Of a stretch of DNA of 64,000 bases, positions 9,403 to 63,734 are shown piece by piece. The notes beneath the pieces are model-generated. The model saw only the letters and a program-made list of their open reading frames with translations, had not been told where the DNA came from and did not search any database. Position numbers and translations under genes: made by a program. The stretch's first letter is position 1. The number at the start of each line of letters is the position of its first letter. Source of the DNA: Bacteroidales bacterium (GTDB lineage: Bacteria > Bacteroidota > Bacteroidia > Bacteroidales > UBA932); assembly GCA_017618115.1 (NCBI GenBank), contig JAFZUX010000009.1, forward strand, positions 1 to 64,000, written 5' to 3'.

Positions 9403-10185
9403 ATGCTGCTTAAAAGAAAAATATCTTTGGGCTTTGTCATTGTGGGATTCATCCTGCTGCTTTCAAGTTTGATTGCAGTGTTTGAGTTTGTCACAATGAA
9501 ACGCTCTATTGAGAAGCTCGTAAAGGATGACATAGCCGCCATTAACACCTCCAGATTGCTGATGGAGGTGACTGATGAGTTCAACTACGCTTTGCTGGAG
9601 ACTATGGGAGATTCCTCCTATACGGATATGAGTCAATTCCCTAATATTAGGGAAGATGACCGCTTTATCAACTATGTGGACAACATCAGAGACAACTTCA
9701 CAACGGAGCGTGAGAGGCTGATGGCGGATTCCGTAAGGTACGCTTACGTAGCCTATGCAAATATTTTGGAGGAGTCCAGAGATCTCTGGAACTTAGAGTA
9801 TTATGAGAAGAGACAGTGGTACTTCCAGCGTCTCTATCCGGTTTATACTCAGCTCCGCGGATATATTAAAGAGCTCAACTCCGCATCTCAGGAAGCACTT
9901 AAGGAGAATACCGAGGCTCTCTCCGAGGGGTTCTACAGAAGCCTGATGCCTTGCGTTGTAGCGGTAGGTATAGGTATAATATTGCTCTTCCTTTTCAACT
10001 ACTTCCTCAACTACTACTTCTTCAATCCTATCGTGAAGATTAACAGAGGAATGAAGAACTACAAGACAAGCAGGAAAGTGTACGATTACTCCTTTGCGAC
10101 GGGAGATGAGATGGAGGATCTCAACGAAAATGTTAAGGATCTATTAAGGGAGCACAAGCATCTTACAAAAGATAAGATTCAGTAG
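9403..10185 (+). CDS. Membrane protein with periplasmic helical sensor region and C-terminal HAMP domain
   Basis: About 260 residues. A first membrane segment (ISLGFVIVGFILLLSSLIAV) is followed by about 150 mostly helical extracytoplasmic residues resembling a four-helix-bundle chemoreceptor sensor. A second membrane segment (CVVAVGIGIILLFLFNYFL) leads into a HAMP-like stretch (NPIVKINRGMKNY ... GDEMEDLNENVKDLL). The protein ends there, with no kinase, methyl-accepting or cyclase domain. I chose the ATG at 9403; a TTG at 9397 would add two residues. It is 3 bases from trkH, so a role linked to K+ uptake or membrane signalling is possible, but this is inference. Confidence 0.75.
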   Translation: MLLKRKISLGFVIVGFILLLSSLIAVFEFVTMKRSIEKLVKDDIAAINTSRLLMEVTDEFNYALLETMGDSSYTDMSQFPNIREDDRFINYVDNIRDNFTTERERLMADSVRYAYVAYANILEESRDLWNLEYYEKRQWYFQRLYPVYTQLRGYIKELNSASQEALKENTEALSEGFYRSLMPCVVAVGIGIILLFLFNYFLNYYFFNPIVKINRGMKNYKTSRKVYDYSFATGDEMEDLNENVKDLLREHKHLTKDKIQ

Positions 10186-36360: not shown

Positions 36361-37269
36361 ATGAAATCCAATTTAAAACTTTTACCATACATCTTTGCCC
36401 TTGTCTCCATTACATTTTGGGGGTTCTCGTTTATTTGGGAAGATTACCTGATAAAGAACAACATAGAGATTTTTGCCTTCATATTTGAGAGAATGCTTCT
36501 CTCTGCAGTTATCCTTTGGGCGGTAGGGCTTTTGATTGGTTCCATTCAGAAGATAGAAAAGGGTGATATGAAGTGGATGTTCCTTCTTGCTCTGGGTGAG
36601 CCGTTTATCTATTTCCTGGGAGAAAACTTTGGAATAAAGTACACGTCGGGAGTACTGGCTGCCGTTATAATTGCCACAATACCACTCTTTTGCACAGTAA
36701 TAGACAGAATACTCTACAACTTCAGACTCTCTTTTCAAAAGATATTCGGCTGTCTTCTTTCTTTAGCCGGAATAATCTTCTTCTTTATGAATAAGGGCGG
36801 GATGGGTACATCCCCTCTGAAAGGGATTCTTTTGCTCTTTCTTTTTGCAGTTGGAGGCGCGTTGATATATGGTTATACCACCAAGAAGATGTGCCAAAAA
36901 TACAGCCCGTTTACCATTGTAACCTATCAGTTTACATTTGGAGCCCTCTTGTTCCTGCCTCTGTTTTTGATCTTTGGACTCAAAGGCCTTACTCCTGAGT
37001 ACTTTACAATGGGAGTTCAATCCAAGATATTTGCTCTGGCTCTGCTTTGCTCCTGCATCTGCTTTGGACTATGGGCATACTGCACCGGAAAACTGGGCGT
37101 TACAAGGGTCAATATCTTTTCCGCTTTAATTCCTTTGGTCTCCGCCGCAGTCGCCTATTTCCTATTCCCCGGCCAGGAGAGCTTTACTACCCTAAAGTTC
37201 ATAGGAATAGCCCTTACCGTTACCGGCGTAGTGGTAGTACAGCTGGTCAAAGACGTCAAAGCCGCCTAA
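36361..37269 (+). CDS. EamA/DMT-superfamily permease
   Basis: A 302-residue inner-membrane protein with about ten hydrophobic segments in two related halves, as in the drug/metabolite transporter superfamily. Typical EamA elements are ITFWGFSFIWEDYLIKN at the start of the first half, SGVLAAVIIATIPLFCTVIDRIL, and the second-half SALIPLVSAAVAYFLFPGQE with GIALTVTGVVVVQL at the end. The substrate cannot be deduced. The stop codon shares the bases CTAA (37266-37269) with the stop of the HigA gene on the other strand. Confidence 0.88.
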   Translation: MKSNLKLLPYIFALVSITFWGFSFIWEDYLIKNNIEIFAFIFERMLLSAVILWAVGLLIGSIQKIEKGDMKWMFLLALGEPFIYFLGENFGIKYTSGVLAAVIIATIPLFCTVIDRILYNFRLSFQKIFGCLLSLAGIIFFFMNKGGMGTSPLKGILLLFLFAVGGALIYGYTTKKMCQKYSPFTIVTYQFTFGALLFLPLFLIFGLKGLTPEYFTMGVQSKIFALALLCSCICFGLWAYCTGKLGVTRVNIFSALIPLVSAAVAYFLFPGQESFTTLKFIGIALTVTGVVVVQLVKDVKAA

Positions 37270-37541
37270 TATGAGAAACTGAGTTGAGCCCCCACGGCTG
37301 CGCACATTAAAATGAATGTTGAGAGCTGCAAATCTGTTTTACCTCTCTCAATTAGAGAAACGTATGTTCTTTTCTTTCCAATTCTGTCTGCAACTTCCTG
37401 CTGAGTAAGGCCCGCCTTTTTTCTTGCATCCTTCAGGCATTCAGCATAATACCAGGCAAGAGCCTTTGATTCAAACTCATCCCTGGCCGGCGTCCCCTTA
37501 GGACCGTATTCTTTAAGCAGCTGGTCTTCAAATGTTTTCAT
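37266..37541 (-). CDS. higA: HigA-type antitoxin (XRE helix-turn-helix)
   Basis: The antitoxin half of a HigBA-like type II module. From the ATG at 37541 it has 91 residues: MKTFEDQLLKEYGPKGTPARDEFESKA, then the helix-turn-helix (ARKKAGLTQQEVADRIGKKRTYVSLIERGKTDLQ). Alternative in-frame starts exist at 37547 and far upstream at 37625. The last would add a Lys-rich stretch read in another frame of the toxin gene, which seems less natural. The start overlaps the toxin stop by 14 bases, so the pair is translationally coupled, with toxin first as in HigBA. Confidence 0.85.
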   Translation of the reverse strand: MKTFEDQLLKEYGPKGTPARDEFESKALAWYYAECLKDARKKAGLTQQEVADRIGKKRTYVSLIERGKTDLQLSTFILMCAAVGAQLSFSY

Positions 37542-37956
37542 TCCCATCAGTTTTTTCTTTGCTATTGTCATTCTTTTCCTGTTCTTGCTTTCCATCTTGT
37601 TCTTTTCCATTTTCTTCTGTATCATCTGATAACAGTTTTTCTAAAATCCTATCTGCAATTCTCAGTTGCTTCTTATAATCCTTAGTGGATTTCTTCATAA
37701 AGCCGTTCAGAAGATACACTTCCGTGGCTCTAATGAAGGCTATCTCATTAATCGTAAAAAGAATTACTCTGTACTCATTTCCTAAAGAAATTCTTAACTC
37801 ATAATAAGGCGTGTTAACCAGTTTCTTTACAAACTTAGAGTTCACAACCATCTCACTTGTTATGATTTGTAAGATGTACTTAACTTTCTCCTTCGCATCA
37901 TCATCCAGAGAGTTGTAGAACTCCTCATACTCACTGCTTTCATATATCTTTCTCAT
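37528..37956 (-). CDS. higB: HigB/RelE-superfamily toxin with a charged C-terminal tail
   Basis: A 142-residue toxin-like protein. Residues 1-110 fit the RelE/HigB ribosome-dependent mRNase fold: an N-terminal helix pair (EEFYNSLDDDAKEKVKYILQ), NTPYYELRISLGNEYRVILFTI strands, and FIRATEVYLLNGFMKKSTKDYKKQL. The family usually ends there. Here about 30 more residues follow (DDTEENGKEQDGKQEQEKND and onward), rich in Glu, Lys, Asn and Gln and probably disordered. The gene precedes its antitoxin, the usual HigBA order. A -7 box lies 3 bases before the ATG. Confidence 0.84.
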   Translation of the reverse strand: MRKIYESSEYEEFYNSLDDDAKEKVKYILQIITSEMVVNSKFVKKLVNTPYYELRISLGNEYRVILFTINEIAFIRATEVYLLNGFMKKSTKDYKKQLRIADRILEKLLSDDTEENGKEQDGKQEQEKNDNSKEKTDGNENI

Positions 37957-48741: not shown

Positions 48742-49353
48742 CTACTTCTCAAAGGATTGGAAGCTTCCGTCAGAGTAGAGGAGAATAACCCTCTCCAGCT
48801 CTTTTTTTATCTCGATAGATGGCTTTTTTACCTCGTTTACGCCACTCTCAAGAGGTTCAGCAGGCCCATTTTCTTCAGTAATATCCTTATTTACAGTCTC
48901 TTCCAACTGTTTGAGCCGTTGTCCCAGTTCTCCCTCTTCCAGAGCCGGGAATGGGTGATACTGGAGTTTTTCATCTTCAAACGGGAAATCCTGCTCCTCT
49001 TCCTCCGGAAATCCGAACAAATTATCGCTATTTGTGTCAGAAACACGCAAAGTTTGAGTTTCTTCAGATTTTTGCTTATTTGCGTTAAACTCACGCAAAG
49101 TCATAGAGTCGCTCAGAGCCTCTCCTCGGAAATTTTTCTCACTGTTTCGGTAGGGTTGACCAACTCCGGTGAGCAACCATTCAATATTCAAATTCGGCAA
49201 TTTTGTCAGTACGGAAAGAATGAAGTCGTAACTCGGATTGTTACGTCCGCTCATAAGGTTGGAAAGGGTAGATCTCTGGATGCCCAAAAGAGTGGCCAAT
49301 TGGGCGGCGGTTAATCTTTCCAGGTTGAGGATGGTCTGTAAACGCTCTTTCAT
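48742..49353 (-). CDS. XRE-family transcriptional regulator with acidic C-terminal region
   Basis: A 203-residue protein whose first ~65 residues form a helix-turn-helix domain (ERLTAAQLATLLGIQRSTLSNLMSGRNNPSYDFILSVL), followed by NIEWLLTGVGQPYRN, a motif common to Bacteroidales regulators of this type. The rest is acidic, low in complexity and probably flexible (PEEEEQDFPFEDEKLQ), ending with a short conserved-looking segment (IKKELERVILLYSDGSFQSF). It is transcribed from its own promoter at 49375-49382. A small inverted repeat lies in its leader, which may mean autoregulation. Targets are unknown. Confidence 0.82.
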   Translation of the reverse strand: MKERLQTILNLERLTAAQLATLLGIQRSTLSNLMSGRNNPSYDFILSVLTKLPNLNIEWLLTGVGQPYRNSEKNFRGEALSDSMTLREFNANKQKSEETQTLRVSDTNSDNLFGFPEEEEQDFPFEDEKLQYHPFPALEEGELGQRLKQLEETVNKDITEENGPAEPLESGVNEVKKPSIEIKKELERVILLYSDGSFQSFEK

Positions 49354-49359
49354 AGTTGT

Positions 49360-49382
49360 TAACTTTACTAGTTACAAATATA
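49360..49382 (-). promoter_or_regulatory. Promoter and possible operator of the XRE regulator
   Basis: On the minus strand TATATTTG (49382-49375) is an exact -7 element, 22 bases before the ATG. An inverted repeat TAACT-N5-AGTTA (49360-49374) lies between it and the start codon, in position to block transcription start or early elongation. Confidence 0.5.
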
Positions 49383-49863
49383 GACATTTTCTCTCAATTA
49401 GTCAAAAATTCTTTTTGCGCTCATCCTTTTTTACAAATTTTGACAAATTGCGCAGTTAGAAGAAATGCTGCATATAGATGTCTACAATAGGGGTACGCAA
49501 AAAACAATCTACTTAAATGTGTAATTTAGATAGCCACTGTAAATATCTTGCAAATCAGTAATATAGCAAATTTTCAAATATTTATTTTTACGCTCAATGC
49601 GCATTTATAGCCCATTTTATGCGCAATATGCCTAAAGCTGTATTTTATGTAGTAGTATTAAATCACTTATAAATCAATAAGTTACAAAATTTCAAAAATT
49701 ACTATAAGTAAAACTTATACTCTGCAAACAAATCACATATCTGAAGTACGCAATTTGAAAATTTTCTGTTCAATTCTGTGAATTTTTATTATTTAAATTT
49801 GTGAAATTCAAAAAAGTGAAAAACCTCTATTTTAAGAGATTTCTTCTTTTGTGGGTAATTATG
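49383..49863. other. AT-rich non-coding region with repeated TGCGCA/TACGCA motifs
   Basis: This is by far the longest gene-free stretch in the window. It is visibly AT-rich and has no open reading frame with gene-like content. The hexamer TGCGCA occurs at 49449-49454, 49598-49603 and 49620-49625 (the last two 22 bases apart). TACGCA occurs at 49494-49499 and 49747-49752, and TGCGCTC and ACGCTC variants also appear. No tRNA, riboswitch or cluster of DnaA boxes was recognised; a single one-mismatch DnaA-like site (TGTGGGTAA) is at 49850-49858. It lies between the divergent XRE regulator and queA. Confidence 0.6.
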
Positions 49864-57115: not shown

Positions 57116-57612
57116 TGACTACAGAGGAACTCAATTTAAAACTATCCAAAATACTTGTAAGAAAGAGACTTACAATAGGTACCTGCGAGTCCTGCACCGC
57201 CGGAAGAATTGCCTCAGCCCTTACAAGCCTTGACGGAGCCTCCAGATACTTCCGAGGCTCTCTTCTAACATACGCTACAGAGCTTAAAACAAAGCTGTTG
57301 GGAATACCAGCAGGGCAGATAGAAAAGCATGATGTGGTAAGTTCTTACGTGGCAAAAAAGATGGCCCTTGCCGCCCTTTCAATTCTTGATAGTGATATCG
57401 CGATAGGTATAACGGGCTATGCAGGAGCCACCGGCGGAAGTGAAATTTCACCTGCCGGAACTGTCTGGATTGCAGCGGCATTCAAAGGGAAAGACCCTTG
57501 TGCAAAACCAAAGGTTTACACAAAGGTCCTTCATCTTTCCGGCAACCGCCTGGATAATCTGTCTGTAGCGGTTAATGCCTCACTGCAGTTGGTTCTCCGT
57601 TACTTAGAGTAA
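57112..57612 (+). CDS. Stand-alone CinA C-terminal domain (NMN deamidase type)
   Basis: A 166-residue protein equal to the C-terminal domain of CinA (PncC family), which deamidates nicotinamide mononucleotide. It has [20 protein letters not shown], the following [20 protein letters not shown] and the glycine-rich [12 protein letters not shown]. It is a second copy of the domain present in the full-length cinA at 46421. Two ATGs in tandem (57112, 57115) are equally usable. Its 3' end overlaps the hbd 3' end by 13 bases. Confidence 0.9.
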
Positions 57613-58445
57613 TCGTAGAAGCCCTTGCCGGTCTTGCGGCCGAGAAGGCCTGCACGTACCATCTTTCTAAGAAGCGGATGCGGACGGTACTTGCTGTCTC
57701 CGAACTCGTTGTAGAGAACCTCCATAATTGCAAGGCAAACATCCAAACCAATAAGGTCTCCCAAAGCCAGAGGGCCCATAGGGTGGTTTGCACCCATCTG
57801 CATTGCTGCATCAATCTCCTCCTTGGTTGCAATGCCGTCTGCAAGAATTCCAACTCCCTCGTTTACAAGAGGAATGAGGATTCTGTTAACAACAAAACCA
57901 GGAGCCTCGTTTACAGATACAGGGCACTTGCCAATAGCCTTTGCTATCTCAACAACCTTATCGTGAACCTCAGGTGAAGTAAGCTGACCCTTGATTACCT
58001 CTACAAGTTTCATAAGAGGTACTGGGTTGAAGAAGTGCATACCAATCACATTCTGAGGTCTTTGTGTAAAGGCTGCAATAGCGGTGATTGAGAGTGAAGA
58101 GGTGTTGGATGCCAGAATTGCTTCAGGCTTGCAGACTTTATCCAGAGTCTCCCAAATCTCTTTCTTTACAGCCATATCCTCGGCTACTACTTCAATTACA
58201 AGATCTGCATCTTTGAGGTCGTTGTAATCCATTGTGTCCTTGATTCTTGCAAGAATCTGGTCTTTTACTGCGGCCTCCATCTTGCCTTTCTCAACGCTCT
58301 TTGTGAGGAATTTTTCAATAGCCTTGTGAGCTCTTCCAAGAGAAGCCTCGCTGCGGCCCTTAAGAAGTACATCGTGGCCGGCGGTTGCAAAAGCCTGTGC
58401 AATGCCGTGACCCATTGTTCCGTTACCTACAACTGCAACTTTCAT
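57600..58445 (-). CDS. hbd: 3-hydroxybutyryl-CoA dehydrogenase
   Basis: Hbd reduces acetoacetyl-CoA to 3-hydroxybutyryl-CoA with NAD(P)H. The 281-residue protein starts with the Rossmann motif [18 protein letters not shown]. It has the catalytic-site region [19 protein letters not shown] and [14 protein letters not shown], and ends [18 protein letters not shown]. The 281-residue single-domain length fits the clostridial butyrate-type enzyme. It follows the crotonase gene by 36 bases on the minus strand. Together they convert acetoacetyl-CoA to crotonyl-CoA, which joins the lysine route. Confidence 0.95.
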
Positions 58446-58481: not shown

Positions 58482-59261
58482 CTATTTGTTTTTCCACTCC
58501 GCCTCTCTCTTCTCAAAGAAGGCCTTCATTCCCTCTTTCTGATCTTCAGTTGAGAAACACTCTGCAAAGAGGTTGTTCTCAATTGCAATGGCGGTGTCTA
58601 TATCTGTCTGCATACCTCTGTTGATAGCCTCTTTGCTCAGTTTGAGGGCAATAGGGGCGTTCTTTGCTATGGTCCTGGCAAGAGACTTTGCCTCATCCAT
58701 AAGTTTTTCCGGCTCTACCACTCTGTTAACCAGACCAATGCGCAGAGCCTCATCTGCAACTATAGCCTTTGCCGTAAAGATTATCTCTTTGGCAACGCCC
58801 TCTCCCACAATTCTTGGGAGGCGCTGAGTGCCTGAGAAACCGGGAGTTATACCCAATCCAACCTCCGGCTGACCAATCTTAGCCTTGGCTGAGGCAACGC
58901 GGATATCGCAGCTGAGTGCAAGTTCGCATCCTCCTCCCAAAGCAAAGCCGTTAATGGCCGCAATTGTTGGTTTTGAGAGGTTTTCAATCTTGCGGAAGAC
59001 CCTGGAGCCCTGCACTCCGAACTCTTTGCCCTCAAGGGCGTTCATAGTGCTCATTTGAGAGATGTCTGCACCGGCAACAAAGGCGCGTCCCTCTCCGGTT
59101 AGAATAACCACTCTAACGGTCTCATCTTTTTCTATTTGGGTGAATGCATCATCCAACTCTGAGAGAGTCTCGGAGTTGAGGGCGTTCATAGACTGCGGGT
59201 TGTTGATCTTAACCGTGCAGATATTGCCCTCTTTCTCAATAATCAGTGTTTTGTATTCCAT
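58482..59261 (-). CDS. Enoyl-CoA hydratase (crotonase)
   Basis: A 259-residue crotonase hydrating crotonyl-CoA or dehydrating 3-hydroxybutyryl-CoA. The oxyanion-hole segment FVAGADISQM, the catalytic region FALGGGCELALSCDIRVAS with its Glu, and QPEVGLGITPGFSGTQRLPRIVG with the second Glu are all present. It heads the minus-strand pair with hbd, and is transcribed away from the lysine genes from a promoter flanking the same palindrome. Confidence 0.94.
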   Translation of the reverse strand: MEYKTLIIEKEGNICTVKINNPQSMNALNSETLSELDDAFTQIEKDETVRVVILTGEGRAFVAGADISQMSTMNALEGKEFGVQGSRVFRKIENLSKPTIAAINGFALGGGCELALSCDIRVASAKAKIGQPEVGLGITPGFSGTQRLPRIVGEGVAKEIIFTAKAIVADEALRIGLVNRVVEPEKLMDEAKSLARTIAKNAPIALKLSKEAINRGMQTDIDTAIAIENNLFAECFSTEDQKEGMKAFFEKREAEWKNK

Positions 59262-59289: not shown

Positions 59290-59297
59290 CAAATCTA
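59290..59297 (-). promoter_or_regulatory. Bacteroidetes -7 element for crotonase-hbd
   Basis: On the minus strand this reads TAGATTTG, matching TAnnTTTG, 28 bases before the ATG. The 26-bp palindrome begins 19 bases upstream of it, in the -33 region. Confidence 0.6.
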
Positions 59298-59316
59298 CGA
59301 AAAAATATCCTGAAAT

Positions 59317-59342
59317 AAAATATAACAACGTTGTTATATTTT
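59317..59342. promoter_or_regulatory. Perfect 26-bp palindrome, candidate operator of the lysine/butyrate island
   Basis: Each 13-base half is the exact reverse complement of the other; the core is ATAACAACGTTGTTAT. It lies between divergent -7 boxes (59290-59297 minus, 59355-59362 plus). A TTG inside it (59331-59333) could be the -33 element of the plus promoter. The symmetry without a loop or flanking T run suits binding by a dimeric repressor such as a TetR-family protein rather than a terminator. No regulator gene is adjacent in the window. Confidence 0.75.
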
Positions 59343-59354
59343 TCTTTTTTTTAT

Positions 59355-59362
59355 TATATTTG
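59355..59362 (+). promoter_or_regulatory. Bacteroidetes -7 element for the lysine fermentation operon
   Basis: TATATTTG matches TAnnTTTG. A TTG at 59331-59333, inside the palindrome, lies 21 bases upstream. The ATG of the CoA-transferase subunit is 46 bases downstream at 59409. Confidence 0.65.
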
Positions 59363-59408: not shown

Positions 59409-60083
59409 ATGGACAAAAGAATTTCTTTACAGGAAGCCGTTTCCAAAATTAAGGACGGAATGACAATCATGGTAGGCGGATTTCTATCTGCCGGTTCTCC
59501 TCTTGACATCCTGGACGCTCTTGCAAAAAGCGATGTAAAAGATCTGACTCTTATCTCCAATGATACTGCATACCAGGGAGTTGGAGTAGGTAATCTAATC
59601 GGAGCCCATAAGATTAAGAAACTCTATGTTTCTCACATCGGAACAAATCCGGACACTGCAGCTCAGATGAATGCAGGTGAATTGGAGATTGAATTCTGCC
59701 CTCAGGGAACTTTGGCAGAGAGAATCCGTTGCGGCGGAGCAGGCCTTGGCGGAGTGCTCACAACTACCGGTATGGGTACGGTAATAGCTGACGGTAAGCC
59801 AACTGTAGAGGTAGACGGTAAGACTTATCTCTTGGAGAAACCTCTTCACGCAGACATTGCACTTATTGGCGCAACCGTAGCAGACGAGAGAGGTAACTGC
59901 GTATATGTAGGTACATCTCAGAACTTTAACCCGCTTATGGCAACCGCTGCAGATGTAGTTATTGTTGAGGCGGAGAAGATTGTTCCTGCAGGTGAGATTG
60001 CACCTGAGGCTGTTATCACCCCTCACGTGTTTGTAACTCACATCTACCAGTCTACTAACAATTTACAGAAAGTAAGAGAGTAA
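59409..60083 (+). CDS. atoD: Butyrate-acetoacetate-type CoA-transferase subunit A
   Basis: A 224-residue type I CoA-transferase alpha subunit. It has the CoA-binding [22 protein letters not shown], then [44 protein letters not shown] and the [19 protein letters not shown] region. In lysine fermentation it moves CoA from butyryl-CoA to acetoacetate. The active-site Glu is on subunit B, which is not next to this gene or elsewhere in the window. The start is set at ATG 59409 because the frame upstream (from 59331) is promoter DNA. Confidence 0.93.
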
Positions 60084-60084
60084 T

Positions 60085-60474
60085 ATGGGAGCAAAATCAC
60101 TTATCAGAGTAAGAATGGGCGGAGAGGACGCTCATTACGGCGGAGGTCTTGTAGACGGAGCACACATGCTCAAACTCTTTGGAGATGTTGCTACCGAACT
60201 TCTGATTATCAATGACGGAGACGAGGGTCTCTTTAAGGCATACGACAACGTAGAGTTCATAGCTCCCGTATATGCAGGAGATTACATTGAGGCTACAGGT
60301 GAGATAACCAACGTTGGAAATACATCACGCAAGATGACATTTGAGGCAAGAAAGGTGATTGCACCTCGCCCGGATGTATCTGATTCTGCGGCAGATGTAC
60401 TCTCTGAGCCTATAGTAGTGTGCCGCGCAAGCGGAACCTGCGTTGTTCCTAAAAAATGTCAGAGAAAGGGTTAA
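60085..60474 (+). CDS. kal: 3-aminobutyryl-CoA ammonia-lyase
   Basis: Kal removes ammonia from L-3-aminobutyryl-CoA to give crotonyl-CoA in lysine fermentation. The 129-residue hotdog-fold protein matches the family in length and sequence ([30 protein letters not shown], then [19 protein letters not shown] and [12 protein letters not shown]). It sits one base after the CoA-transferase gene and 6 bases before kce, inside an operon with the other pathway genes, which supports the call. Confidence 0.93.
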
Positions 60475-60480
60475 CGGGTT

Positions 60481-61314
60481 ATGGATAAGCTGATTATTAC
60501 CGCCGCAATATGCGGTGCAGAGGTAACAAAGGAGCAGAATCCTGCCGTTCCATACACTGTAGATGAGATAGTTAGAGAGGCAAAGAGCGCAGTTGACGCC
60601 GGTGCCGCTATTGTCCATCTCCACGTAAGAAGAGATGACGGAACTCCTACTCAGGACCGTGCCCGTTTCCAGGAGTGCGAAGAGGCTATTCTCAAAGTCT
60701 GCCCGGATGTAATTCTTATTCCGTCTACGGGAGGTGCAGTAGGCATGACTCCTGATGAGAGACTGCAATCTACTGATACTGACCCAAGACCTGAGATGGC
60801 AACACTGGATTGCGGAACCTGCAACTTTGGTGACGAGATCTTTGACAACACTCTTCCAACCATGCGCGCATTTGGAAAGCGTATGATGGAGCGTAACATA
60901 AAGCCTGAGTATGAGTGCTTTGAGATGGGGCATCTGGATTCCATTCTCAACCTTGTACGCAAAGGTCAGGCTCCGGGAGCACCTATGCAGTTCAACTTTG
61001 TGCTTGGAGTACCGGGCTGTACACCTGCAACGGTGGGCAACCTCTGGTGGCTCGTAAATGCCATTCCTGCAGGCAGTACCTGGACCGTAACCGGTGTGGG
61101 ACGCCACGCATTCCCGATGGCTGCAGCCGCAATAGCAATGGGCGGAAACGTAAGAGTAGGCTTTGAAGACAACCTCTATCTCTCAAAGGGTGTGTTGGCT
61201 CCGTCCAACGGCGCTCTGGTTGAGAAGGTTGTACGTCTTGCAAACGAATTGGGACGTCCTGTTGCAAACAGCCACGAGGCTCGTGAAATCTTAGGACTGG
61301 CTCCTAAGAAATAG
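60481..61314 (+). CDS. kce: 3-keto-5-aminohexanoate cleavage enzyme
   Basis: Kce condenses 3-keto-5-aminohexanoate with acetyl-CoA to yield acetoacetate and 3-aminobutyryl-CoA. The 277-residue BKACE-family protein shows the zinc-site motif AIVHLHVRRDDG (about 42-53), the N-terminal IITAAICGAEVTKEQNP, and the C-terminal VRVGFEDNLYLSKGVLAPSN with the conserved Glu. Position and sequence together leave little doubt about the substrate, which in BKACE proteins otherwise varies widely. Confidence 0.94.
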   Translation: MDKLIITAAICGAEVTKEQNPAVPYTVDEIVREAKSAVDAGAAIVHLHVRRDDGTPTQDRARFQECEEAILKVCPDVILIPSTGGAVGMTPDERLQSTDTDPRPEMATLDCGTCNFGDEIFDNTLPTMRAFGKRMMERNIKPEYECFEMGHLDSILNLVRKGQAPGAPMQFNFVLGVPGCTPATVGNLWWLVNAIPAGSTWTVTGVGRHAFPMAAAAIAMGGNVRVGFEDNLYLSKGVLAPSNGALVEKVVRLANELGRPVANSHEAREILGLAPKK

Positions 61315-61357: not shown

Positions 61358-62431
61358 ATGCAAAAACATGGAAATCGCTACGGTACCCACCGTGTAATTG
61401 AGCCTGTAGGCGTTCTGCCACAGCCTGCAAACAAGTTGGACAACAATATGGATGAGATCTATGATAACGAGATCCTTATTGACGTTCAGACACTTAACAT
61501 AGATTCAGCTTCTTTTACAGATATTCACAATTATGCCAAATCACAGGCTAAGAACCCTAACGATGAGGCTGAGGTAAAGGAGGAGATTAAAAAAGAGATG
61601 CTCTTAAACGTTGAGCTTCAGGGCAAACACCGTAACCGTAGAACCGGTTCCGGAGGTATGTTGCTGGGAACAGTTGAGAAGATAGGTGACGCTCTTAAGG
61701 GAAAGATAGATCTTAAAGAGGGTGACCGCATTGCAACACTGGTATCCCTCTCTCTGACTCCGCTCCGCATTGATGAGATTCTGAACATCAAAGCAGATGT
61801 AGATCAGGTAGATATAAAGGGTAAGGCAATTCTCTTTGAGAGCGGTATTTACGCAAAGATTCCTAACGATATGCCTGAGAAACTTGCTCTCTCAGCTTTG
61901 GACGTTGCAGGTGCTCCTGCACAGACTGCAAAGCTTTGCCAGTGCGGCCAGAACGTAGTTATTCTGGGTGCAGGCGGAAAGAGCGGAATGCTCTGCTGCT
62001 ATGAGGCTAAGAAGAGAGTAGGCGTTACGGGTAAGGTTATCGGTCTGGCTAACAGCCCAAGATCTACCAACCGTATTAAAGAGCTGGGCTTCTGCGATGT
62101 AGTAGAGAGCGTAGCAGGTATGACTCCTATCCAGGTTAACGAACTGGTTGCACGCCTTACAGACGGTAAGATGGCAGACGTTACTATCAACTGTGTAAAT
62201 GTGCCTGACTGTGAGATGACTGCAGTGCTCTGCACAAGAGACGGCGGTACCGTTTACTTCTTCTCAATGGCTACAAGCTTTACAAAGGCCGCTCTTGGAG
62301 CTGAGGGTATAGGTGCAGACGTGAACATGATAATCGGTAACGGTTACACTAAGGGTCACGCTGAGATTACTCTCCAGGAACTCCGTGAGTGTGAGAAACT
62401 TAGAAAAATATTTGAAGAACTTTACGCATAA
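61358..62431 (+). CDS. kdd: L-erythro-3,5-diaminohexanoate dehydrogenase
   Basis: Kdd oxidatively deaminates 3,5-diaminohexanoate to 5-amino-3-oxohexanoate with NAD(P). The 357-residue protein begins GNRYGTHRVIEPVGVLPQPA, characteristic of the family, and has a nucleotide-binding segment CGQNVVILGAGGKSGMLCCYEAKK. It lies 43 bases after kce and 4 before kamA. The order kal-kce-kdd-kamA matches the lysine fermentation clusters known from Bacteroidetes and Fusobacteria. Confidence 0.94.
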   Translation: MQKHGNRYGTHRVIEPVGVLPQPANKLDNNMDEIYDNEILIDVQTLNIDSASFTDIHNYAKSQAKNPNDEAEVKEEIKKEMLLNVELQGKHRNRRTGSGGMLLGTVEKIGDALKGKIDLKEGDRIATLVSLSLTPLRIDEILNIKADVDQVDIKGKAILFESGIYAKIPNDMPEKLALSALDVAGAPAQTAKLCQCGQNVVILGAGGKSGMLCCYEAKKRVGVTGKVIGLANSPRSTNRIKELGFCDVVESVAGMTPIQVNELVARLTDGKMADVTINCVNVPDCEMTAVLCTRDGGTVYFFSMATSFTKAALGAEGIGADVNMIIGNGYTKGHAEITLQELRECEKLRKIFEELYA

Positions 62432-62435
62432 TATT

Positions 62436-63734
62436 ATGGCAGTTTCCAGAAGAAAACAGCTGTTTCCGGAAGTTACAGACCAACAGTGGAATGACTGGAA
62501 GTGGCAGGTACGCAACAGGATAGAGACTCTTGAGAAGCTTAAGAAATACATCAAGCTTTCCAAAGAGGAGGAGGAAGGTATCCGTAAGTCTCTGAAGACC
62601 ATAAGGATGGCTATCACTCCATACTATCTGAGCCTTATAGATCCTAATAATCCGGAAGATCCGGTACGCAAGCAGTGTATCCCTACAATTCAGGAGACTC
62701 ACCGTGCCGAGGCAGATTTGCTGGATCCTCTTCACGAGGATACGGACTCTCCGGTTCCGGGGCTTACTCACCGTTATCCGGACAGAGTGCTCCTTCTTAT
62801 AACTGACATGTGCTCAATGTATTGCCGTCATTGCACCAGAAGAAGATTTGCAGGTCAGAAGGATGCTGCAACCTCTATGGACAATGTGGAGAAGGCAATT
62901 GAGTACATAAAGAACACTCCTCAGGTAAGAGACGTTCTCCTCTCAGGAGGTGACGCTCTTATGGTTCCTGATGAGAGACTGGAGTACATCATTCAGAAAC
63001 TCCGCAAGATTAAGCATGTGGAGATTATCAGAATCGGTTCCAGAACTCCGGTTGTATGTCCTCAGAGAATTACTCCTGAGCTTTGCAACATGCTCAAGAA
63101 GTATCACCCAATCTGGCTGAATACTCACTTCAATCATCCTCAGGAGGTTACACCTGAGTCTGCTGCAGCTTGCGCTCGATTGGCAGATGCAGGCGTTCCG
63201 CTCGGAAACCAGTCCGTGCTTTTAAGAGGCATCAACGATTGCGTGAACATTCAGAAGAAGTTGGTTCACGAGCTTGTAAAGATGAGAGTCAGACCATATT
63301 ACATCTATCAGTGTGACTTATCTATGGGTCTGGAGCACTTCCGTACTCCTGTATCCAAGGGTATTGAAATCATTGAGGGTCTGAGAGGTCACACCAGCGG
63401 ATATGCAGTTCCTACCTTCGTAGTGGATGCACCGGGCGGTGGCGGAAAGACTCCTGTTATGCCTAACTACGTTATCTCACAGGCTCCCGGTAAGGTGGTT
63501 CTCAGAAACTATGAGGGAGTTATCACAACTTACACAGAGCCTGAGGATTACAAGTTTGACAAGTGCAACTGCAAGTTCTGCAAGGAGAACAAGGAGTGCG
63601 AGGGTGTGGTATCACTTCTGGCAGGTAAGGCTATGACAATTCAGCCTGCTCACCTGGCAAGAGAGGACCGCGCAAAGAAGTACAAAGCTTCACTTGCTAA
63701 GAAGGCAGCAGCAAAGAAACCGGACAAGAAGTAA
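62436..63734 (+). CDS. kamA: Lysine 2,3-aminomutase
   Basis: KamA is a radical SAM, PLP-dependent enzyme converting L-lysine to L-beta-lysine, the first step of the pathway. The 432-residue protein has the cluster cysteines C126, C130 and C133 in MCSMYCRHCTRRR, the PLP lysine K338 in DAPGGGGKTPV, and LLSGGDALMVPDERL. The C-terminal cysteine group (CNCKFCKENKEC) is a zinc site in characterised members. A Lys/Ala-rich tail ends the protein. The start at 62436 is preferred; an upstream ATG at 62385 lies within kdd. Confidence 0.96.
   Translation: MAVSRRKQLFPEVTDQQWNDWKWQVRNRIETLEKLKKYIKLSKEEEEGIRKSLKTIRMAITPYYLSLIDPNNPEDPVRKQCIPTIQETHRAEADLLDPLHEDTDSPVPGLTHRYPDRVLLLITDMCSMYCRHCTRRRFAGQKDAATSMDNVEKAIEYIKNTPQVRDVLLSGGDALMVPDERLEYIIQKLRKIKHVEIIRIGSRTPVVCPQRITPELCNMLKKYHPIWLNTHFNHPQEVTPESAAACARLADAGVPLGNQSVLLRGINDCVNIQKKLVHELVKMRVRPYYIYQCDLSMGLEHFRTPVSKGIEIIEGLRGHTSGYAVPTFVVDAPGGGGKTPVMPNYVISQAPGKVVLRNYEGVITTYTEPEDYKFDKCNCKFCKENKECEGVVSLLAGKAMTIQPAHLAREDRAKKYKASLAKKAAAKKPDKK

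Follow-up and report, generated by a model that had tools for sequence, protein, structure and literature searches.

The exact 26-bp palindrome located upstream of ctfA, the first gene of a lysine-fermentation operon, in the stretch of 64,000 nucleotides analysed here (the window) is a strongly conserved operator-like site of the lysine-fermentation genes in one genus, at which binding of a regulator is putative. It represents a new binding motif of an ordinary kind that is tied to the lysine operon of this genus. From its conservation and its position relative to the promoters, it is probably the operator of a dimeric regulator of the ctfA operon, most likely a repressor, with binding, repression and signal all inferred. 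Shared control of crt-hbd by the same site is plausible, mainly in the clade to which the genome of this window belongs. The features concerned are collected in Table 1.

Table 1. Coordinates in the window of the palindrome, the neighbouring promoter elements and genes, and one weak regulator candidate.
Feature	Positions	Strand	Remarks
XRE / phage-CI-type HTH protein, weak candidate	48742..49353	-	PF07022, PF01381
hbd, 3-hydroxybutyryl-CoA dehydrogenase	57600..58445	-	NCBIfam NF004474, 434.7 bits, cut-off 408
crt, short-chain enoyl-CoA hydratase	58482..59261	-	NCBIfam NF004475, 418 bits, cut-off 394
-7 box TAGATTTG, leftward crt-hbd promoter	59290..59297	-	box end 40 bp from operator centre
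Exact 26-bp palindrome AAAATATAACAACGTTGTTATATTTT	59317..59342	.	centre between 59329 and 59330
Conserved operator core ATAACA-N4-TGTTAT	59322..59337	.	basis: same-genus loci upstream of ctfA
TTG, possible weak -33 element inside operator	59331..59333	+	21-nt gap to -7 box
-7 box TATATTTG, rightward ctfA/lysine operon promoter	59355..59362	+	box end 33 bp from operator centre
ctfA, CoA-transferase subunit A, lysine operon gene 1	59409..60083	+	TIGR02429 above subfamily cut-off, PF01144
kal, 3-aminobutyryl-CoA ammonia lyase	60085..60474	+	NF052388 above cut-off
kce, 3-keto-5-aminohexanoate cleavage enzyme	60481..61314	+	NF052387 above cut-off
kdd, L-erythro-3,5-diaminohexanoate dehydrogenase	61358..62431	+	NF052381 above cut-off
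kamA, lysine 2,3-aminomutase	62436..63734	+	TIGR03820 above cut-off

An exact palindrome of 26 bases had been reported at 59317-59342 in the initial annotation, and direct reading of the sequence bore this out. It is the longest exact palindrome of the 64-kb window, the runner-up measuring 18 bp, and the maximum reached across 300 first-order Markov simulations of 64 kb was 22 bp. The intergene in which it lies is 149 bp long with 79% A+T, and a palindrome of at least 26 bp arose in only 1 of 20,000 simulations of an AT-rich intergene of that length. In its own genome (G000, a 1.85-Mb assembly of 26 contigs, 89% complete), the 20-bp core of the palindrome occurs a single time with up to three mismatches allowed. 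Among the relatives read, the exact 26-bp dyad was present only in G000, G030 and G019, which have the centre ACGT, and in G013, with the centre ATAT. The exact 26-bp length is, on the sequences compared, partly accidental, because the full 26 bp results from a centre that happens to be self-complementary, and the conserved element is ATAACA-N4-TGTTAT. Elsewhere in the window, an 18-bp exact palindrome, TTCCCTAATATTAGGGAA, is found at 9637-9654 within ORF 9403-10185.

The initial annotation had staked its reading on recurrence of the palindrome in orthologous intergenic regions, where it was indeed encountered. Of 37 same-genus genomes, 35 gave a Kal match and 34 a readable ctfA upstream region, leaving out G001, whose contig ends at ctfA, and G002 and G026, in which no Kal was found. 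With at most two mismatches the core ATAACA-N4-TGTTAT was present upstream of ctfA in 30 of these 34 genomes, being exact in 28 and carrying one mismatch in G005 and two in G036; it was not found at ctfA in G006, G007, G009 and G010. Because G000 and G030 hardly differ from each other, the 34 loci include non-independent ones and the count overstates independence. In an alignment of 28 sites (27 exact ones and that of G005; G014 was dropped for its short upstream stretch), 11 of the 12 arm positions reached 2.0 bits and the twelfth 1.78 bits, compared to 0.45-1.32 bits for the four central bases and 0.07-0.86 bits for the flanks past the A/T-rich shoulders. On the ctfA DNA tree, the genus falls into two clades, both well supported, with 19 and 16 rows; clade 1 is that of this window's genome, and the site occurs in both. 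The operator-less genomes do not group together on this tree, their placement having weak support, so that loss may have occurred more than once. All four belong to clade 2 (loci L038, L036, L039 and L028 for G006, G007, G009 and G010, respectively) and keep the promoter core and the lysine genes.

In a second collection, consisting of the best 80 of 586 relatives by Kce, all 13 loci with a CtfA 93-100% identical have the site. The source of these 13 records was the ruminant stomach in six and no host was named in the others, and the source organism is probably a rumen bacterium. At the 67 other-genus loci among the same best 80 of 586, assigned by CtfA or Kal identity, the site was not found within 350 bp of ctfA; 63 of the 67 had a ctfA match (L131, L144, L158 and L160 did not), and absence therefore refers to 63 ctfA starts, a few of them with little upstream DNA. 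The other-genus ctfA upstream regions, among those listed, display TAnnTTTG-like promoters and, by eye, no shared dyad.

Regarding the genes around the site, the products of kal, kce, kdd and kamA exceed the NCBIfam equivalog cut-offs for lysine fermentation, and that of ctfA exceeds a CoA-transferase subfamily cut-off. Past the window the operon appears to continue with kamD, kamE, ctfB, an acyl-CoA dehydrogenase gene and etf genes, all named by eye. Directly after the lysine-butyrate operon, genes resembling those for iron-hydrogenase and NADH dehydrogenase lie on the opposite strand (L002 17307-19968 and the start of L003; contig 72307-76483; by eye). On the other side, crt directly adjoins in part of the genomes, and in others, from either clade, an mscS gene separates it from the site (read in G035, G016, G018 and G024).

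The promoters of the Bacteroidota sigma factor sigma-ABfr are described in the available text of PMC7366714 as having TTTG near -33 and TAnnTTTG near -7. Both -7 boxes of the window fit this description, as do the clade-2 ctfA promoters, which read TTTG-N19-TAnnTTTG, whereas the dyad does not belong to the promoter consensus given in that source but is added to it, over the -33 region or upstream of it. The boxes that had been annotated on opposite strands on either side of the palindrome are both present, TATATTTG on the plus strand and TAGATTTG on the minus strand. The overlap ascribed to the palindrome and the -33 region of the plus promoter also holds, since its right half covers the expected -33, including the TTG at 59331-59333. 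The rightward promoter of the window has no TTTG at normal spacing from its -7 box, and a TTTG 17-21 nt before the -7 box was observed in none of 18 clade-1 ctfA promoters. In clade 2, on the other hand, TTTG-N19-TAnnTTTG is intact at ctfA in 12 of 12 loci with the site and in 4 of 4 loci without it, the -7 box of the latter four having been sought by its expected form. A sigma-70 scan yielded one site versus 2.0 expected.

The final G of the rightward TAnnTTTG lies 33-38 bp from the operator centre in all 30 site-bearing loci: the distance is 38 bp in each of the 12 clade-2 loci and ranges from 33 to 37 bp in the 18 clade-1 loci. To the left, a box at 40 bp was found in 14 of 19 clade-1 loci when TTCG was allowed besides TTTG. 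Its form was TAnnTTCG in 10 of these 14, a departure that counts against the favoured mechanism given below, and TAnnTTTG in the other four. Among the other five clade-1 loci, G034 has no box at 40 bp, the box is at 84 bp in G035 and at 83 bp in G013, the stretch is too short in G014 and the contig ends in G001. For the site-bearing clade-2 loci, the nearest leftward box is 59-93 bp off. The rightward distance is thus steady in both clades while the leftward box is close in clade 1 only, which designates the lysine operon as the constant partner. Consequently, the annotated placement of the palindrome between divergent lysine and crt-hbd promoters stands, but the joint switching of both branches proposed along with it fits the geometry of clade 1 only and not that of clade 2.

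The favoured mechanism is one in which a dimeric DNA-binding regulator would bind the palindrome with each subunit contacting one 6-bp half-site (ATAACA or TGTTAT), the centres of the two half-sites being 10 bp apart. The operator would be dedicated to the lysine-to-butyrate operon starting at ctfA, and the bound regulator would cover or abut the -33 region of the ctfA promoter and turn it off; in clade 1, the crt-hbd promoter would likewise be covered or abutted at its upstream end and turned off. The repressor, whose gene would be encoded away from the operon, would be released by lysine or by an intermediate of the pathway. Repression is favoured because the clade-2 promoter core stays intact in the absence of the site. 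Given an inferred offset of the start site, the rightward 38 bp of clade 2 and the leftward 40 bp of clade 1 nevertheless place the site near -42 to -44, and activators bind there too. A regulator touching RNA polymerase from about -42 in a class-II-like manner, and thereby activating ctfA in both clades and the divergent crt-hbd promoter in clade 1 only, would be consistent with these two constant spacings (14 of 19 clade-1 loci on the left, 12 of 12 site-bearing clade-2 loci on the right) and with the lack of a -33 TTTG at 17-21 nt in the 18 clade-1 ctfA promoters. However, the rightward spacing of clade 1 ranges from 33 to 37 bp, a variation of about half a helical turn, and the clade-2 promoters possess a full -33/-7 core that is kept without the site. 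In addition, the usual class-II regulators, Crp/Fnr proteins, were not found in the own genome and exceeded the cut-off in only 2 of 39 genomes (HTH_Crp_2) or 6 of 39 (cNMP_binding), and activation is regarded as rather unlikely. As for a chance palindrome or an AT-rich promoter sequence with no regulator at all, the A+T content of the intergene and the need for a self-complementary centre to reach the full 26 bp would speak for it, but an exact core at the same place in 28 of 34 loci, promoter distances that hardly vary and chance-level counts elsewhere make it extremely improbable. It was rejected on the grounds of conservation, near-singular occurrence and the Markov simulations.

Returning to the site as an operator, its occurrence elsewhere in the genomes was assessed by comparison with matches of a reversed control. 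The 28 genus genomes contain 32 exact cores in total, 20 of them at ctfA; the 12 away from ctfA compare with 9 reversed-control matches and are thus near chance. Outside the genus, 18 genomes from the same order gave 13 sites versus 24 of the reversed control. With at most one mismatch, the own genome holds 13 sites versus 2 of the reversed control, an excess that weighs against the favoured mechanism, and 10 of its 12 one-mismatch sites are inside ORFs; seven genomes pooled gave 104 sites versus 88. Among the extra exact sites of relatives that were read, none is at a place common across the genus. Some are common to pairs, such as those beside cinA in G018 and G012 and beside surface-type ORFs in G015 and G020 and in G035 and G001, and the intergene upstream of a DegT-like gene has an exact site in G011 and a one-mismatch site in G021. 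Exact sites elsewhere being near chance and not genus-shared, the regulon of the exact motif comes down to about one place per genome. A random scatter over the genome, the outcome that the initial annotation had set against its own proposal, was accordingly not seen, with the 20-bp core occurring once in the own genome and other exact cores near chance.

The initial annotation knew of no named operator with this core, and none was found in the literature searched either, a pattern with N not being searchable as text. Likewise, no lysine-fermentation regulator was found described for Bacteroidota in the literature searched. Several known systems nonetheless bear some likeness to the site. TAACA-N4-TGTTA has an FNR-like spacing and PrfA-like half-sites, and similar half-sites and spacing are thus shared with the boxes of PrfA/FNR-type (Crp/Fnr) regulators, but no Crp/Fnr protein was found in the own genome. 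The Rex operators of clostridial butyrate genes, TTGTTAA-N4-TTAACAA, have similar letters and likewise belong to butyrate genes, but their half-sites are opposite in direction to those described here. Rex and LacI were set aside on the shape of their motifs. In Fusobacterium nucleatum, lysine-metabolism genes are under the two-component system CarRS according to the available text of PMC10790702. The likeness lies in the pathway genes that are regulated; no gene for a two-component system was recognised by eye in the 95 kb examined here. The XRE-cupins of Pseudomonas, as presented in the available text of PMC7901475, are mostly local repressors that act on palindromic sites of small metabolic operons, and PauR, PsdR and ErfA share with the present case the palindromic nature of their sites. 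Six of the seven regulate a neighbouring gene, however, while here there is no adjacent regulator gene and no second shared target was seen. In the main text of a large XRE motif study (PMC12565409), no AACA or TGTT string appears.

The regulator gene was searched for near the operon and by family. No regulator gene adjoins the operator in the window and the next 31 kb, where ORF starts were read by eye, and the TetR-, FadR- or LysR-type gene that the initial annotation had expected past the right edge was not recognised by eye over the same span. Besides sigma factors, the 95 kb from the window start hold, by eye, two XRE-type ORFs, one antitoxin-like (37266-37625) and one of CI type (48742-49353). 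Later genus-wide searches included G061 and G062, which are outside the site counts. The Crp/Fnr domain PF13545 (HTH_Crp_2) was absent from G000, above cut-off in 2 of 39 genus genomes and detected in 12 of 39 at E 0.001, and cNMP_binding (PF00027) was also absent from G000 and above cut-off in 6 of 39. Crp/Fnr was rejected despite the FNR-like half-site spacing because its genes are missing from the own genome. TetR (PF00440) matches came from 34 of 39 genus genomes. The three genomes carrying this exact 26-bp palindrome, G000, G030 and G019 (86-89% complete), had none, and the family was rejected for this reason; a TetR protein is present in G013, whose palindrome has another centre. For Rrf2 (PF02082), one of 14 genus genomes was above cut-off and 7 of 14 were positive at E 0.001 with none found in G000, and this family was rejected as not found in the own genome. 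MarR_2 (PF12802) occurs in 12 of 14 genus genomes and in neither G000 nor G030; a MarR regulator is argued against more weakly than the preceding three families, and is probably not involved judging from these matches. Genome incompleteness weakens each single family absence, but sister genomes agree.

Taken together, it is tentatively proposed from these comparisons that a regulator outside Crp/Fnr, TetR and Rrf2, and probably not a MarR protein, may be encoded elsewhere in the genome and, from one operator per genome, may switch lysine fermentation to butyrate in a ruminant Bacteroidales genus, with one symmetric dimer acting on two divergent promoters in one clade and on one in the other. 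If true, this would be the first regulator described for the lysine-to-butyrate pathway in Bacteroidota, within the literature searched. Four variants of the butyrate pathway have been reconstructed in gut bacteria, lysine fermentation being among them (PMC9403272, available text). A well-delimited operator that occurs about once in each genome represents a ready probe to pull out the regulator, and would help predict when these bacteria convert lysine to butyrate.

Two protein types were considered as candidates. Lrp/AsnC proteins, as amino-acid sensors, would suit a lysine operon, and a regulator of this family sensing an amino acid such as lysine is a weak and doubtful candidate. All 14 genus genomes searched contain the family (a single match in 12, two in G006 and G007), with an identical recognition helix, GVSGAAIHQR, in the 14 sequences read. 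It is, however, also present in the four site-less genomes and in G002, which gave no Kal match. In the 14 loci, the 300 bp upstream of the Lrp/AsnC gene contain no copy of the core with fewer than three mismatches, and two 3-mismatch copies there are common to G000, G030 and G019 but not to all 14 loci. Moreover, the E. coli Lrp consensus is odd-centred and the operator here is even-centred. An XRE-type regulator, either the XRE-cupin at G000:C12:13013 or the XRE protein at 48742-49353, is still more doubtful. XRE repressors such as that of phage 434 bind outward ACAA/TTGT-like dyads. Of the 14 genus genomes searched, 12 have the gene at 48742-49353 on the lysine contig (the exceptions are G006 and G002; G035 is a single contig). 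The XRE-cupins of Pseudomonas are metabolic repressors with palindromic sites (PMC7901475, available text). Nevertheless, the recognition helix of the XRE-cupin differs among G000, G021, G010, G015 and G002 (8 proteins read), the exact site being present in G000, G021 and G015, and the one upstream region read (G019) showed no core copy by eye; given the constancy of the operator, the XRE-cupin was rejected on account of this helix variation. For the protein at 48742-49353, weighed for its synteny, no core copy with fewer than three mismatches lies within 300 bp upstream and the helix differs at several residues between clades (QRSTLSNLMSG versus QRSGLSHILSG), not necessarily ones that touch DNA, and the operator does not. 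It was judged unlikely.

Other observations were made on XRE genes in the course of this search. The 20 further XRE stretches read in G000, G030 and G019 are, by eye, mostly small antitoxin-type proteins, and at 37266-37956 the window carries a toxin-antitoxin-like pair with an XRE-type antitoxin (by eye; HTH_3 match 37290-37436). In several genus genomes, a carboxylate-CoA ligase gene adjoins the XRE-cupin gene G000:C12:13013 (L197) or its relatives (L196-L209), and the recognition helix of L197 and its relatives is fast-changing. A gene of the 48742-49353 type is also near the cluster in one other-genus locus, L146. In the window, the region of this gene (48742-49400) is divergent from queA, and its own promoter carries GTAACTAGTAAAGTTAAC in this genome and TTACATTTGTA in the clade-2 loci, perhaps a different, autoregulatory operator.
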